Below, piece by piece: positions 10,809 to 18,199 of a DNA stretch of 32,061 bases. Under the pieces are notes generated by a model, which worked only from the letters and a program-made list of their open reading frames with translations, searched no databases and was not told the origin of the DNA. The first letter of the stretch is position 1; each line of letters opens with the position of its first letter. The translations under genes were made by a program, and so were the position numbers. The stretch spans positions 1 to 32,061 of the forward strand of contig DZDB01000001.1 in the NCBI GenBank assembly GCA_022736605.1. The letters are read 5' to 3'. The DNA is from Sideroxydans lithotrophicus (GTDB taxonomy: Bacteria; Pseudomonadota; Gammaproteobacteria; Burkholderiales; Sulfuriferulaceae).

Positions 10809-11189
10809 ATGACCGACAGCACATTGAAATTTCTGGTAGTGGACGATTTTTCCAGCATGCGACGCATGTTGCGCAACCTGCTGAAAGAACTCGGCTATCG
10901 CGACAGTGACGAGGCTGAAGACGGCGTTGCCGCACTGGAAAAATTGCATAGCGCACACTATGACGTGGTGTTGACCGACTGGAGCATGCCCAATCTGAGT
11001 GGCATTGAGCTGCTGCGTGAAATCCGCCGCGATCCACTGCTAGCGCATCTACCGGTGCTGATGGTGACTGCCGAGGCGCTGCCGGAAAACCTCGCCGAGG
11101 CGACCGCCGCTGGCGCCAGCGGCTACGTACTCAAACCCTTCACGCTGGACACGCTGGGTACAGCGCTGGCTGCAATACTGCCTGCCTAA
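10809..11189 (+). CDS. Single-domain response regulator, CheY-like
   Basis: [58 protein letters not shown]; very close to canonical CheY and no output domain. Confidence 0.92.
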
Positions 11190-11662
11190 CTCAGCTCCGG
11201 CGTCATCACCGCACGCACAATAATCTGCTGGCTGGCTTGCCGCACGCGGTTGGTCAGCCACCACAGCCCGCCTTTCTTGATACACAAATCCGCCTCCGCC
11301 CCGCACATCAGCAGCGACGCCGTTTGTCCCAGACTGGGCTGATGCCCGACCACCACCACGGTACCGCCTGCGTCCGGCCAGCCGCTGGCCAGCACCACGC
11401 TCATCGCATCGGTGCCGGGTGCCAGTTTCTGGATGATCTCCATCGGCCGCCCCAGCGCTGCGGCGGTTTGCAGCGCGCGCTTGGCCGGGCTGACCAGGAT
11501 GCGCGCATCCTTCGGCAGACGCGCGTTGAGCCAGTCCGCCATTTGTGCCGCCTGCTTCAAGCCTTTGGCGGTCAGTTCACGCGTCATGTCGGGCACGCCA
11601 TCCACCGCATCGGCATGACGCCACACGATCAAATCCATATCGACATCCAAAAAGTGCGCCAT
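11186..11662 (-). CDS. sixA: Phosphohistidine phosphatase SixA family
   Basis: [11 protein letters not shown] catalytic motif, [23 protein letters not shown]; about 158 aa. Confidence 0.9.
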
Positions 11663-11683
11663 GCTAGTCCTCCAATATGACAG

Positions 11684-13177
11684 TTATGTGCGCTCACGCC
11701 AAAACGGTTTGGCTGCGTTTACGTCATCCCAGGCAATGCCGAATTGCGCCAGCAACTGCGGCACCTGCGCGGCACACCAGCCCTGTACCATACCGCAAGC
11801 CCAGGTGTGGCGTGGGCGCAAGGTTTGCAGGCAACGCTGTGCGACCGCCAGATCATTTAGCTCACCGAGCTGTTGTTGCAAGCCTGACAGCGCTGCCAGA
11901 TACGCCCGGCTTGCGCGCTGCGGATAAATTTCTGCCATAAACGCCAACAGGTAACGTTGTTTTTTGGCCGCGACACGCAGGCGGTGGCGTGCAGCGACTG
12001 ACAGCGTGGTCGCGTCCCCGCCCCGCCGCAGCAACGTACGATGCTGCTTTGCCAGCAGCTCGCGTGCCCTGCGCTTTAAGCTCCCCGCATTGTCTGCATC
12101 CAGACTATCCTGCTCGCAGGATAGCAACGCCCGTCCGACCCGCAGCAAAAACTGGCCAAACCGTGCCGACCCGAGTGCTGCACTCAAGTCTGCATGCGCA
12201 GCGTGGCGCAACGGCTGGATGGCACGCAGCAGGCGTTCAAATGCCAGATCCGCTACTTGCGTCTGAACTGCGGGCAAGGTGTGCGCCATCACCACATCCC
12301 GGTCACGCGCCAGGCTGGTATTGTCCAGCACCCAGCGTAACTCAGCGCGCAACGCGGCCAGTGCCGGGCAGTGCTGATTGATGCGTAGCGCCGCGTCCAT
12401 GCGCCGCAGTGCAATCCGGAATTGGTGCAGATATTCAGGGTCACGCCCATCCAGTAGCCCGACCAGATTGCCGGTCAGCTGCGCCAATGCGCTTTGCGCG
12501 GCACAGATTGCCGCCGCCGTGACCGGCATCTCCGCGCGCAAGCCTGCCGGGGCAGCTTTAACCGGCGCAGCTAGCTGGCCGAGAAACAGCGCATAACCGC
12601 GTTGCGCCTTGCTCACCGGATCAGGACGCAACGGAATGGTTTCAGCCAGCGCCAGCGCGAGGTCGAACAAAGCCAGCGCAGTGCCCGATTTGAGCTCCAA
12701 CTCCAGTTCCAGAATCGGCTGGCTATGTGTGCCACTACGCACCTCGCCCTGATCCAGCGCCACTTCGATCTGTGCACCCTCCCACTGTACCTGCCAGGTA
12801 GTGCGCCAGAAGCGCGTCTCGAATACCGGCAGCAGTTTTGCCTGCCGCGCCGAGGTAAGCAATGCGCGCACTGCAGGCGCTTCAAACAGCGCCGGATTGA
12901 GCGTTGCATCGGGCAGCGTGACTTCCCATTCGGGGCGCTGATGCAGGCCGCCACTTGCACCCCCTCCAATCTTCACCGTCTGGATCCAGCTTTGTCCGAC
13001 CCGACGCACACGCAACGCCGCATTTTTTCGCATTAGACTTAACTTGGGCGTGTCATGGTAAACACTCCGCAGATTGCGTCGTAACGGCGTGCCCGCCGCC
13101 TGCAATAGCGGATGGCGCTTGAGCGCTGCAACGCTCGTGGATGCCAGCGCCAGCTTGAGTTCAACTTCGGTTGTCAT
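11684..13177 (-). CDS. CYTH and CHAD domain-containing protein (inorganic triphosphatase-like)
   Basis: N-terminal CYTH signature MTTEVELKLAL, C-terminal CHAD helices (EYLHQFRIALRRMDAALR, HRLRVAAKKQRYLLAFM). ATG at 13177 preferred. Confidence 0.9.
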   Translation of the reverse strand: MTTEVELKLALASTSVAALKRHPLLQAAGTPLRRNLRSVYHDTPKLSLMRKNAALRVRRVGQSWIQTVKIGGGASGGLHQRPEWEVTLPDATLNPALFEAPAVRALLTSARQAKLLPVFETRFWRTTWQVQWEGAQIEVALDQGEVRSGTHSQPILELELELKSGTALALFDLALALAETIPLRPDPVSKAQRGYALFLGQLAAPVKAAPAGLRAEMPVTAAAICAAQSALAQLTGNLVGLLDGRDPEYLHQFRIALRRMDAALRINQHCPALAALRAELRWVLDNTSLARDRDVVMAHTLPAVQTQVADLAFERLLRAIQPLRHAAHADLSAALGSARFGQFLLRVGRALLSCEQDSLDADNAGSLKRRARELLAKQHRTLLRRGGDATTLSVAARHRLRVAAKKQRYLLAFMAEIYPQRASRAYLAALSGLQQQLGELNDLAVAQRCLQTLRPRHTWACGMVQGWCAAQVPQLLAQFGIAWDDVNAAKPFWRERT

Positions 13178-13269
13178 AATATTGTCATGTGATTGCCATA
13201 TAAAGATAGAGTGTGCGACGTATCCGCGCACCTCACAATCATCTTAGCGTTATTTGCTACCATACCCCC

Positions 13270-15339
13270 ATGACAATCGCCACTACCGAGCATTTCCTCA
13301 ACCGCGAACTGAGTTTGCTGGCCTTTAACGAACGCGTGCTGGCGCAAGCCGAAGATCCCGCCATGCCGTTGCTCGAACGGCTCAAATTCATCTGCATCGT
13401 CAGCAGCAACCTGGATGAATTTTTTGAAGTACGCGTCGCCGGACTGAAGGAGCGCATCGCGCTCAGCTCGATCAGCGTTGGTCCTGACGGTCTGAGCGCC
13501 ACGCAGACGTTCCGCGCTGCGGTGCCACGTGTGCATGCACTGGTTGAAAAGCAGTACGCCACATTGAATCAAAGTATCTTGCCGCAACTGGCCGAACAGG
13601 GCATCCGGTTTCTGCGTCGCAATCACTGGAATACCGAACAGACTGAGTGGATCCGCGCGTATTTTTTCCGCGAACTGATGCCGGTGCTGACACCGATCGG
13701 CCTCGACCCTGCGCATCCATTCCCGCGCGTGCTCAACAAGAGCCTGAACTTTGCCGTCGAACTGTCCGGACGCGATGCGTTTGGACGCAATTCCGGCGCA
13801 GCGGTGGTGCAGGCGCCGCGCTCGTTGCCACGCGTGATCCGCATGCCGGAAGCGATTGCCGGGTGCGAATACGGCTTCGTGTTTTTGTCGTCGATCCTGC
13901 ACGCGCACGTCGATGAGCTGTTCTCGGGCATGACGGTGCAGGGTTGTTATCAATTCCGCGTCACACGCAATTCCGACCTGTTCGTTGACGAGGAAGAGAC
14001 CAAAAACCTGCGCGAAGCCTTGCAGGGCGAACTGCCGCATCGCCACTTCGGCAACGCGGTCCGGCTTGAAGTCGCAGATAACTGCTCACCCAAAATGGCC
14101 GAATTTTTGCTGTCACAGTTCAGCCTGGACGCCGATGACCTGTACCAGGTCAACGGCCTGGTCAACCTGGTTCGTCTGATGCAGATTCCTGATCAGGTAG
14201 ATCGCCCCGACCTCAAGTTCGCACCGTTCATGCCCGGTCTGCCAAACGGTCTGGCCAAGGAAGGCGCGATGTTTGCTGCAATCCGCAAAAGCGATATTTT
14301 GCTGCACCACCCGTTCCAGTCATTCCAGCCAGTCATCGACTTCATCCGTGAAGCCGCAGACGATCCGAAAGTGCTGGCAATACGCCAGACCGTGTACCGC
14401 ACCGGCACCGATTCCATGCTGATGGAAGCGCTGATCGCTGCCGCACAGAGCGGCAAGGAAGTCACCGTCGTGGTCGAGTTGATGGCGCGTTTCGACGAAG
14501 AGGCCAATATCAACTGGGCCGCCAAACTGGAAGATGCCGGCGCCCACGTGGTGTACGGCGTGGTTGCGCACAAGACCCACGCAAAAATGGCGCTGGTGGT
14601 ACGCCGCGAAGATGGCAAACTGCGTCGTTATGCCCATCTCGGCACCGGCAATTACCACGCCAGGACGGCACGCCTGTACACCGATTTTGGCCTGTTGACA
14701 TGCAACGATGATGTATGCGCAGACGTCAACGACATCTTTACCCAGTTGACCGGGCTGGGCAAAGCTTCACGCCTCAAACACCTGTGGCAATCACCGTTTA
14801 CCCTGCACAGCCAGGTGCTGGCCGCCATCAAGCGCGAAACCACGCTGGCGCAGTCAGGTCAACCTGCTGCGATTATTGCCAAAATGAATTCCCTGGTCGA
14901 ACCTGATGTGGTCAATGCCCTGTACGAAGCCTCGCAGGCGGGCGTAAAAATCAGCCTGATTATCCGGGGTGTGTGCGTGCTCAAACCCGGCATTGCCGGG
15001 CTGTCGGAAAATATCCGCGTGCGCTCGGTGATTGGCCGCTTCCTGGAACACACGCGCATTTTCTACTTCCGCGATGGCGGCGCCGAACGCGTCTATTTAT
15101 CGAGTGCAGACTGGATGGATCGCAACTTTTTCCGCCGCATTGAAGCGTGTTTCCCGGTGCTGGAGCCACGCCTGAAAAAACGCGTGATTACCGAAGGACT
15201 GAAACCTTACCTGAAGGACAATACCCAGGCCTGGGACATGGACATGCACGGCGACTATCGGCGCAAACAGCCGCGTCGCGCCAAGCCTTACAACGCCCAG
15301 GCCATGCTCTTGGAAACACTGGCAAAAAGCGCCGGGTAA
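13270..15339 (+). CDS. ppk1: Polyphosphate kinase 1
   Basis: NRELSLLAFNERVLAQAED, HHPFQSFQPVIDFIREAADDPKVLAIRQTVYRTG, ARFDEEANINWAAKLEDAGAHVVYG, HLGTGNYH; ATG at 13270 preferred. Confidence 0.97.
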   Translation: MTIATTEHFLNRELSLLAFNERVLAQAEDPAMPLLERLKFICIVSSNLDEFFEVRVAGLKERIALSSISVGPDGLSATQTFRAAVPRVHALVEKQYATLNQSILPQLAEQGIRFLRRNHWNTEQTEWIRAYFFRELMPVLTPIGLDPAHPFPRVLNKSLNFAVELSGRDAFGRNSGAAVVQAPRSLPRVIRMPEAIAGCEYGFVFLSSILHAHVDELFSGMTVQGCYQFRVTRNSDLFVDEEETKNLREALQGELPHRHFGNAVRLEVADNCSPKMAEFLLSQFSLDADDLYQVNGLVNLVRLMQIPDQVDRPDLKFAPFMPGLPNGLAKEGAMFAAIRKSDILLHHPFQSFQPVIDFIREAADDPKVLAIRQTVYRTGTDSMLMEALIAAAQSGKEVTVVVELMARFDEEANINWAAKLEDAGAHVVYGVVAHKTHAKMALVVRREDGKLRRYAHLGTGNYHARTARLYTDFGLLTCNDDVCADVNDIFTQLTGLGKASRLKHLWQSPFTLHSQVLAAIKRETTLAQSGQPAAIIAKMNSLVEPDVVNALYEASQAGVKISLIIRGVCVLKPGIAGLSENIRVRSVIGRFLEHTRIFYFRDGGAERVYLSSADWMDRNFFRRIEACFPVLEPRLKKRVITEGLKPYLKDNTQAWDMDMHGDYRRKQPRRAKPYNAQAMLLETLAKSAG

Positions 15340-15359
15340 ACCCGATGCTTTGTGCCCGG

Positions 15360-15896
15360 TCAGACGGTTTTTGGGTACTGGCGAAACGATACGATGGACT
15401 GATGCACCGGCATCGCCACACCTTGCGCGCTCAACATGGCGTCAAGTTTGGCGTCGTCCATCTCGATCAGTTGCTGTTGCAGGTCGTCCAGATGGCCCGC
15501 GATATCGCGCGAAATCTGCTTCAGTTCGGCAAACAGTTGGTGTGCCTGCGCTTGCGCTGCCGCTTTTTCTTCAGCCAGCTTTTTAGCAGAACCCAGCATG
15601 CGCCCGAACAGGCCGGACGTGTCTTCCTTATCGGCCACGCGCAACAACTTGTGGATTTCCATGTAAACGTCGTGCAGCTTGAGGTGCGGGTCTTCCACCT
15701 TGCGGAACGCCGCCAGTTGCGACAGGATTTGACCCTCACCGTAATACCAGCAGCCAAAGCCGCACTCGGTGCCGTGCACCGGCACTTTGTCTTTGGCAAC
15801 CTCCATGCCTTCTACCAGCGCATGAGCGTGCGTGACCCAGCTCATGTGAGCTTTTTTGCTATCGCGTAAACGGTAAATCACTTCGGCTTTGTTCAT
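15360..15896 (-). CDS. Stand-alone CZB (chemoreceptor zinc-binding) domain protein, copy 1
   Basis: MNKAEVIYRLRDSKKAHMSWVTHAHALVEG...HGTECGFGCWYYGEGQ...PHLKLHDVYMEIHKLL: CZB His/Cys pattern; AGGAGAG ribosome-binding site before ATG at 15896. Confidence 0.82.
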   Translation of the reverse strand: MNKAEVIYRLRDSKKAHMSWVTHAHALVEGMEVAKDKVPVHGTECGFGCWYYGEGQILSQLAAFRKVEDPHLKLHDVYMEIHKLLRVADKEDTSGLFGRMLGSAKKLAEEKAAAQAQAHQLFAELKQISRDIAGHLDDLQQQLIEMDDAKLDAMLSAQGVAMPVHQSIVSFRQYPKTV

Positions 15897-15970
15897 GTTT
15901 TCTCTCCTGAGTATTGTATTTCTGTCGGTTAGACGTAATACGTGGAGAGGCAAAAACAGACTGTGAACAA

Positions 15971-16006
15971 AGATTAAATCTGATTCATTAGCAGACTTAA
16001 ATTAAA
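15971..16006. promoter_or_regulatory. Candidate operator pair upstream of CZB copy 1
   Basis: AGATTAAATCT palindrome (15971..15981) plus AGACTTAAATTAAA (15993..16006), which matches AGACTTAATCTAAA at 3578..3591 in 12 of 14 positions. Confidence 0.45.
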
Positions 16007-16057
16007 CGCAGGTTGCGGGGTGGGTGTGAAATTGACTGCTGTGAGTAGCGAAAATGA

Positions 16058-16585
16058 TCAAGCGACTATTTGTTTCACCAGACTCAGTTTAGGCGGCGCA
16101 TTGCCGAATCCCTGTGCCGCCATCAGCGCATCGAACTCAGCGTCGCTCATGGCCAGCAGCACGGCCTGTAAATCGTCAACATGCGCGACAATTTCACGTG
16201 ACGCAGCTTTCATGTCCTGCAACAGGGCATGTGCCTTGGCATCAGCCGCCTGTTTTTCGGCTTTGAGTTTGCGTCCCGCACCCAGCAGGCAGCCGAGCCG
16301 CGAGTTGTCCTGTTCCTTCTGTCCGACTTTGAGCAACACATGAATATGCAGGTAGATAGCGTGCAGGCGCTGGTGTGGCTCGTCTATCCGTTGAAATGCA
16401 GAAATCTGCGACAGCACGCTGCCATTGCCGTAATACCAGCAGCCAAACGCGCATTCGGTGCAATGCAGCGGCACTTCGTCCTGCTCAACCGGGCGCCCTT
16501 CAATAATTGCACTGGCGTGCGACACCCACCAGAGATGGGATTTTTTGGCATCGTGCAGGAAAGTAATGGCGTGGGCTTTTTTCAT
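16058..16585 (-). CDS. Stand-alone CZB domain protein, copy 2
   Basis: MKKAHAITFLHDAKKSHLWWVSHASAIIEG...HCTECAFGCWYYGNGSVLSQISAF...PHQRLHAIYLHIHVLLKV; paralogous to copy 1. Confidence 0.82.
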   Translation of the reverse strand: MKKAHAITFLHDAKKSHLWWVSHASAIIEGRPVEQDEVPLHCTECAFGCWYYGNGSVLSQISAFQRIDEPHQRLHAIYLHIHVLLKVGQKEQDNSRLGCLLGAGRKLKAEKQAADAKAHALLQDMKAASREIVAHVDDLQAVLLAMSDAEFDALMAAQGFGNAPPKLSLVKQIVA

Positions 16586-16681
16586 GTCAACTCGCAGGAA
16601 ACATTTCACGCTGACAACCTACCAGATGCAAGCAGTACAAAACATCCATCAATCGAATGAATTTTCAATCCGGATTCAGGC

Positions 16682-16698
16682 CACAAACCAGGTTTGTG
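16682..16698. promoter_or_regulatory. 17-bp perfect palindrome CACAAACC-A-GGTTTGTG between ppx and CZB copy 2
   Basis: Read directly; 8-bp arms around one central base, about 100 nt upstream of CZB copy 2 start and just after the ppx stop. Confidence 0.4.
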
Positions 16699-16705
16699 CC
16701 CAGTT

Positions 16706-18199
16706 TCAGGGGGGGTTATTGACCATCAGCTTGACGCCTGCCTCTTTCCAGACCTGCACTTCCGCTTTCAACGCGGTGCACGTCAAAGGATTGTCGTCCA
16801 GCCAAGCGGCTGACAATGCCAGCTGATAGCCTGCACCGGCGGGGCTCAACGCAATACCCGGCAACGCCGCAGTGATGCGGCTGCGATGAAACAGCACCGC
16901 CAGGCGCAGCGCCAGCACCATCAACTGCACCTCGGGCTGGGCAATGGGCGCTTGAAATTCAGCCAGCTTGGACAAGCCACCGCGTTGCGCCCGCACCAGC
17001 AGCGCCAGCCGTATCTGATCCTTGCGCGAAAAACCCGGCATGTCGGCGTTTTCCAGAATGTACGCACCATGCTTGTGGTACCCCGAATGGGCAATCGAAA
17101 TACCGACCTCATGCAACAGCGCCGCCCAACGCAAAAATAACGACTGGTTCTCCACCGTTTCGTCGCTGTCATCCGTAATCTGTGCGTACAACTGGGTCGC
17201 CAGTCCGGCAACACGTTTCGCCTGATGCGTGTCGACATGATAGCGGCGCGTGAATTGCGCCACGGTAGCGGCGCGCATATCGCGATGGTGGAAGCGCCCG
17301 AGCAAATCGTACAGCACGCCCTCGCGTAACGCGCCATCGGCCACGGTCATCTGCTCGATGCCGAACTCGGCAAACAGCCCACTCATGATCGCCAGTCCGC
17401 CAGCTATGACCGGCTTGCGGTCGGGCTTAAGGCCAGCCAATTCGAGCCTGTCAACGCTGCCAGCGCGAATCAGCGCAATTCGAAATGCGGCCAGCCCATC
17501 TGCGCTGATGCCCGACTGTGACCAGCCATTCTGTACCAGCACATCCGACAAGGCGCGCGCCGTGCCGCTTGAACCAACGGCCTCGTGCCATTGCCCGATA
17601 TAGTCAACACGCAGGCTTTGTGCTTCGGCGCGCGCAGCCAGTTCGGCTTGTTTCATGGCGGCTTTCTCGATTCGCCCATCGCGGAAATACTGCCGGGTGT
17701 AATTGACACAGCCCAGATGCAGGCTCTCCATCAAGCGCGGCTCAACCCCGTTGCCGATGATGCATTCGGTCGAACCGCCACCGATATCGATCACCAGGCG
17801 GGATTGTTCAGTGGCTGGCAGACTATGTGCGACGCCGATATACACCAGCCGCGCTTCTTCACGCCCGGCGATGACTTCAATCGGATAACCTAACGCAGCT
17901 TCAGCCTGCGCCAAAAATTCGGCTGCATTGTTCGCCACGCGCAGCGCGCTGGTGCCGACGCAGCGCACCGCGCCTTGCGGTATTCCGCGCAGGCGCTCGC
18001 CAAACCGGCTCAGGCAATCGAGTGCACGCTGTTGCGAAGCGGCATCGAGATTTTTATCGACGCCGACACCTGCCGCCAGGCGTACTGGCTCCTTGAGCAC
18101 GTCAAGCGGATAGATCTGGTCGTCCACCACCCGCGCCACTTGTAACTTGAAGCTGTTGGAGCCGAGATCGACCGCTGCCAGTATGGAATACTCGTTCAT
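16706..18199 (-). CDS. ppx: Exopolyphosphatase (Ppx/GppA family)
   Basis: AAVDLGSNSFKLQVARV, VGTSALRVANNAAEFL, VIDIGGGSTECIIG, HD-like C-terminal region. Confidence 0.95.
   Translation of the reverse strand: MNEYSILAAVDLGSNSFKLQVARVVDDQIYPLDVLKEPVRLAAGVGVDKNLDAASQQRALDCLSRFGERLRGIPQGAVRCVGTSALRVANNAAEFLAQAEAALGYPIEVIAGREEARLVYIGVAHSLPATEQSRLVIDIGGGSTECIIGNGVEPRLMESLHLGCVNYTRQYFRDGRIEKAAMKQAELAARAEAQSLRVDYIGQWHEAVGSSGTARALSDVLVQNGWSQSGISADGLAAFRIALIRAGSVDRLELAGLKPDRKPVIAGGLAIMSGLFAEFGIEQMTVADGALREGVLYDLLGRFHHRDMRAATVAQFTRRYHVDTHQAKRVAGLATQLYAQITDDSDETVENQSLFLRWAALLHEVGISIAHSGYHKHGAYILENADMPGFSRKDQIRLALLVRAQRGGLSKLAEFQAPIAQPEVQLMVLALRLAVLFHRSRITAALPGIALSPAGAGYQLALSAAWLDDNPLTCTALKAEVQVWKEAGVKLMVNNPP

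Follow-up and report, generated by a model that had tools for sequence, protein, structure and literature searches.

Two adjacent genes on the minus strand of the 32,061-nucleotide stretch of DNA analysed here (the window) each encode a short protein in which CZB is the only Pfam domain that passes. Copy 1 (P0001, 178 aa) occupies positions 15360..15896 and matches PF13682 with an E value of 6.7e-12 (46.0 bits); copy 2 (P0002, 175 aa) occupies positions 16058..16585 and matches the same model with an E value of 4.3e-12 (46.7 bits), the cut-off being 29.4 bits. No NCBIfam model passed for either protein. The copy 1 reading frame begins with ATG, with AGGAG upstream, and the two proteins share 50% identity in a gap-free alignment of 159 residues. 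Their motif regions, as read, are HGTECGFGCWYYG and HCTECAFGCWYYG. Copy 1 carries H41-G-T-E-C45-G-F-G-C49-W-Y-Y-G, pattern matching placing the coding stretch from C45 onwards at 15739..15764 (minus strand), and copy 2 carries H41-C42-T-E-C45-A-F-G-C49-W-Y-Y-G, the equivalent stretch lying at 16428..16453 (minus strand). The first-pass annotation had described tandem stand-alone CZB proteins sharing TEC-x-FGCWYYG, with two Cys in the motif of copy 1 and three in that of copy 2 (HCTECAFGC). This description was borne out: the two open reading frames and their motifs lie where it placed them, neither protein has a second recognisable domain, and the Cys are C45/C49 in copy 1 and C42/C45/C49 in copy 2. 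Over their whole length the proteins contain two Cys (C45, C49) and four Cys (C42, C45, C49, C99), respectively. The 3His/1Cys set H17, C45, H71 and H75 is present in this order in both copies, and we regard these four residues as the putative zinc ligands. The host genome (1.7 Mb, 75% complete) also encodes a short CZB protein with a CALGKW motif, cut by a contig end, and a protein with a weaker CZB match whose second half is GGDEF-like.

The pair lies directly downstream of ppx, on the same strand. The left border is ppk1, encoding polyphosphate kinase (13213..15339, plus strand; Pfam PP_kinase domains), which abuts ppx in congeners, and the right border is ppx itself, encoding exopolyphosphatase (16706..18199, minus strand; Pfam Ppx-GppA and an NCBIfam exopolyphosphatase model). 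The CZB genes thereby interrupt a polyphosphate-related cluster (11186-18199) made of a SixA-like histidine phosphatase, a CYTH-CHAD protein, ppk1 and ppx. At the corresponding junctions of congeners G003, G001 and G008, ppk and ppx are convergent and abutting with no CZB gene between them (the G003 ppk is 93% identical over the part seen), and in congeners G017 and G013 the orthologue adjoins an operon for a branched-chain amino-acid-type ABC transporter. These empty junctions, together with orthologues located elsewhere, indicate that the pair was inserted downstream of ppx and duplicated in this lineage. The location of the inserted pair speaks only weakly for a role in polyphosphate metabolism. 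Linkage to the polyphosphate operon is not conserved, being missing at the three congener junctions, and relatives have different neighbours; a search for conserved neighbours across families returned no shared partner gene. A Gate-domain gene found near both the window pair and one relative (L095) was considered as a partner and set aside as probably a coincidence, because congeners free of CZB genes also have it next to ppx.

The inserted pair is flanked by a direct repeat on the plus strand, TTTGTGCCCGGT at 15349..15360 and TTTGTGCCCAGT at 16693..16704, which match at 11 of 12 positions and give the consensus TTTGTGCCC[GA]GT. Of 5000 random segment pairs, 25 gave a repeat as good, and this one was noticed post hoc; it is possibly a target-site duplication and possibly a product of chance. 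Searches of the locus for Rfam families and for promoter-like sites returned no match.

We next asked how common a Cys is at position 5 of the motif, where Lys is usual. A census of the pattern C-x-[FL]-G-x-W-Y-Y-G in 349 Pseudomonadota genomes, with the matches of the host genome left out, gave 76 independent motifs, whose fifth position was K (49), Q (15), R (8), L (2), N (1) or H (1), and never C. Of 300 genomes of the order, only two carried CxFGCWYYG, the window genome and congener G017. Across 84,980 species genomes, in a scan that counts only relatives near enough to the query for tblastn, FGCWYYG relatives were confirmed only in Sulfuriferula, in Thalassolituus marinus, in a Verrucomicrobium MAG and in a CZB-GGDEF protein of Alteromonas. 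The second Cys is thus real and rare. Its description as atypical in the first-pass annotation is upheld by these counts, and the converse case, a second Cys common to all CZB domains, is contradicted by its absence from all 76 motifs. A motif match in IMG/VR (L040) proved to be an out-of-frame coincidence, and a plasmid search gave a single weak MCP match and nothing else.

Profiles of these proteins, searched against sets of 274 and 369 genomes from the class, recovered CZB-only relatives with intact ligands in seven other families. The CZB-only family is small and scattered across Gammaproteobacteria (sensu GTDB). An alignment of its 11 zinc-competent members showed H17, W20, P39, T43, C45, F47, G48, W50, H71, H75 and Y78 to be invariant, position 49 being C, K, H, Q or R in the same alignment. 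In phylogenetic analysis the family formed a branch separate from chemoreceptor and other CZBs (support 97/99). The Alteromonas Cys protein fell on the CZB-only side of the tree, its very long branch making this placement unsure. These results outline a coherent family of CZB-only proteins whose zinc ligands do not vary.

The first-pass annotation had also proposed a family tree that might reveal a distinct CxFGC subclass. In a within-family tree built without site 49, the genus formed a clade (98/98) that grouped with bearers of H, Q and H (98/98), apart from Thalassolituus. A tree forcing the Cys bearers of this genus and Thalassolituus together was rejected (AU p = 0.020), and at least three state changes at position 5 are required across the tree. 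A separate subclass is not supported by this result, nor by the occurrence of K, H, Q or R elsewhere in a family whose four ligands are invariant. Because its bearers are scattered on the tree and the one-clade tree is rejected, the position-5 Cys has most likely had more than one origin, at a site that tolerates change. The pair are further members of a known CZB-only kind that carry a rare substitution.

Several relatives have lost the zinc ligands. In G013 the orthologue (L045:7744-8253) has an open, full-length frame from which substitutions and an in-frame deletion of 12 nt have removed C45, C49, H71 and H75, and the ligands are missing as well from relatives in G640, G891 and G785. In G640 and G891 the ligand-less relative lies in a znuA-znuC-znuB-CZB-pyrE array, the pyrE neighbour being kept in G893 (L119). 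These relatives were detected by profile search (L103:7789-8280, minus strand, and L104:2672-3163, plus strand, between znuB and pyrE; E values 1.7e-11 and 1.6e-9), their array neighbours spanning L103:7078-10828 and L104:141-4192; searched against Pfam on their own, they gave no match. The ligand losses in G013, G640 and G891 suggest that in some branches the scaffold can function in the absence of zinc. Such natural ligand-less relatives are usable controls, and a CZB-like protein linked to zinc uptake through the znu array merits its own study.

The AlphaFold model of P0001 is all-helical, with a mean pLDDT of 86.4 and helices at residues 3-28, 46-51, 54-58, 62-65, 68-88, 96-100, 103-145 and 148-157. 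A Foldseek search of the PDB with this monomer model returned no match with E < 0.1 and no CZB among the best 50 listed, helical bundles being poorly matched in such searches; a PDB sequence search gave no informative match. Membership of the CZB fold thus rests on sequence. An amphipathic-looking stretch, L-[FLW]-x-[RK]-[LMF]-[LFIV]-G, recurs in P0001 (residues 92-107) and in L044, L045, L007 and L066-L070, in the segment that separates helix 4 from the long last helix, and is absent from the shorter members L071 and L091. It might serve as an insert that binds a membrane or a partner.

Since the motif Cys of CZB domains is a zinc ligand and lid, with positions 2 and 5 exposed to solvent (PMC8262984), C45 would be the zinc thiolate and C49 its neighbour on the solvent side, probably outside the zinc site and not a ligand. 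C49 is common to both diverged paralogues and to congener G017. As 41% of the columns of the CZB region are identical in all three proteins, this retention is weak evidence of function; it is compatible with selection, and chance retention is about equally likely. At a predicted short helix, C49 follows C45 by four residues, and the two could therefore be close to each other. Oxidation might produce a disulfide between them.

The explanation that we favour, with some confidence, is that these proteins are helical CZB-only zinc switches or buffers, each holding one Zn2+ through H17, C45, H71 and H75, with C49 probably outside the site. The fold of each copy is most likely a helical CZB domain whose C-terminal helix is longer. 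When zinc is gained or lost in response to labile zinc, to oxidation of C45 or to both, the alpha2-alpha3 segment would loosen; the loosened segment would alter binding to a separate partner, or the protein would just buffer zinc. Family membership, the invariant ligands, the rarity and scatter of the extra Cys and the empty congener junctions are observed; that the proteins bind zinc, dimerise, switch and act on a partner is what we infer. C49 would be a lineage-specific substitution at a variable, solvent-facing position. A contrasting, unlikely but credible proposal likens the motif to CXXC zinc switches: HOCl or another oxidant would convert the zinc-bound C45 to sulfenic acid, and C49 would then form a reversible disulfide that frees zinc and limits over-oxidation. 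The four-residue spacing kept in both paralogues and in G017 is consistent with such a resolving role, as are the published conversion of the CZB Cys to SOH with zinc release in DgcZ (PMC8262984) and a rubrerythrin gene within the window, although the latter lies about 12 kb away. However, position 5 varies and faces the solvent according to the published survey (PMC8262984), most of the CZB-only family lacks a Cys there, and the bearers are not one clade. An extended version, in which C49 resolves C45, homo- and heterodimers form from subunits with 2 and 4 Cys, and co-transcription with ppx couples the pair to polyphosphate, we consider quite improbable.

Two further readings depart from the favoured single-zinc site. 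In one, the pair would be structural or adaptor proteins that can do without zinc, with function residing in the helical scaffold and the C-terminal helix. The full-length G013 orthologue without C45, C49, H71 and H75 and the ligand-less relatives in G640, G891 and G785 speak for it; but neither copy, nor any other full-length zinc-type member seen, has lost any of the four ligands, and we judge this improbable. In the other, H41 and C49, which are common to copies 1, 2 and G017, might join C45 and, in copy 2, C42 in an extended or second metal site, for instance one for zinc, copper or iron that is richer in thiolates. H41 is unconserved in the family, C42 occurs in copy 2 only and the canonical four ligands are intact; a metal site with H41/C42 was rejected on conservation, leaving this reading highly improbable.

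The favoured zinc switch or buffer can be set against known CZB systems. CZB-only architecture accounted for 27.1% of 10,140 CZB sequences in a 2021 survey (PMC8262984); our literature search found no functional study of CZB-only proteins. The surveyed proteins likewise have 3His/1Cys, C-x-F-G-x-W and no output domain, but the window pair is in tandem and has Cys, not the usual K, Q, R or H, at position 5, and its C-terminal half is longer, containing the sequence L-[FL]-G-[RK]-[LM]-[LF]-G and a long last helix. In the CZB domain of E. coli DgcZ (PDB 3T9O), zinc is inhibitory and HOCl acting on C52 releases it (PMC8262984). The motif and ligand order are the same as in the window proteins, and we take H17, C45, H71 and H75 as the probable counterparts of DgcZ H22, C52 and the two downstream His; DgcZ carries a GGDEF domain, whereas the window proteins have none. 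As a rare natural CX3C variant, the pair allows one to ask whether a neighbouring thiol changes HOCl-driven zinc release. The TlpD/McpA-type chemoreceptor CZBs have a zinc-thiolate centre proposed to read redox state or zinc availability (PMC13370339, PMC6715182), a 2026 preprint proposing that CZBs mainly read zinc availability (PMC13370339); unlike them, the window proteins lack an MCP signalling domain and belong to the separate branch. The CZB-GGDEF protein of Alteromonas sp. KUL42 (L009), with CEFGCWYYG, has the position-5 Cys in common with the pair but is very divergent and has a diguanylate cyclase architecture, and its Cys was most likely acquired independently.
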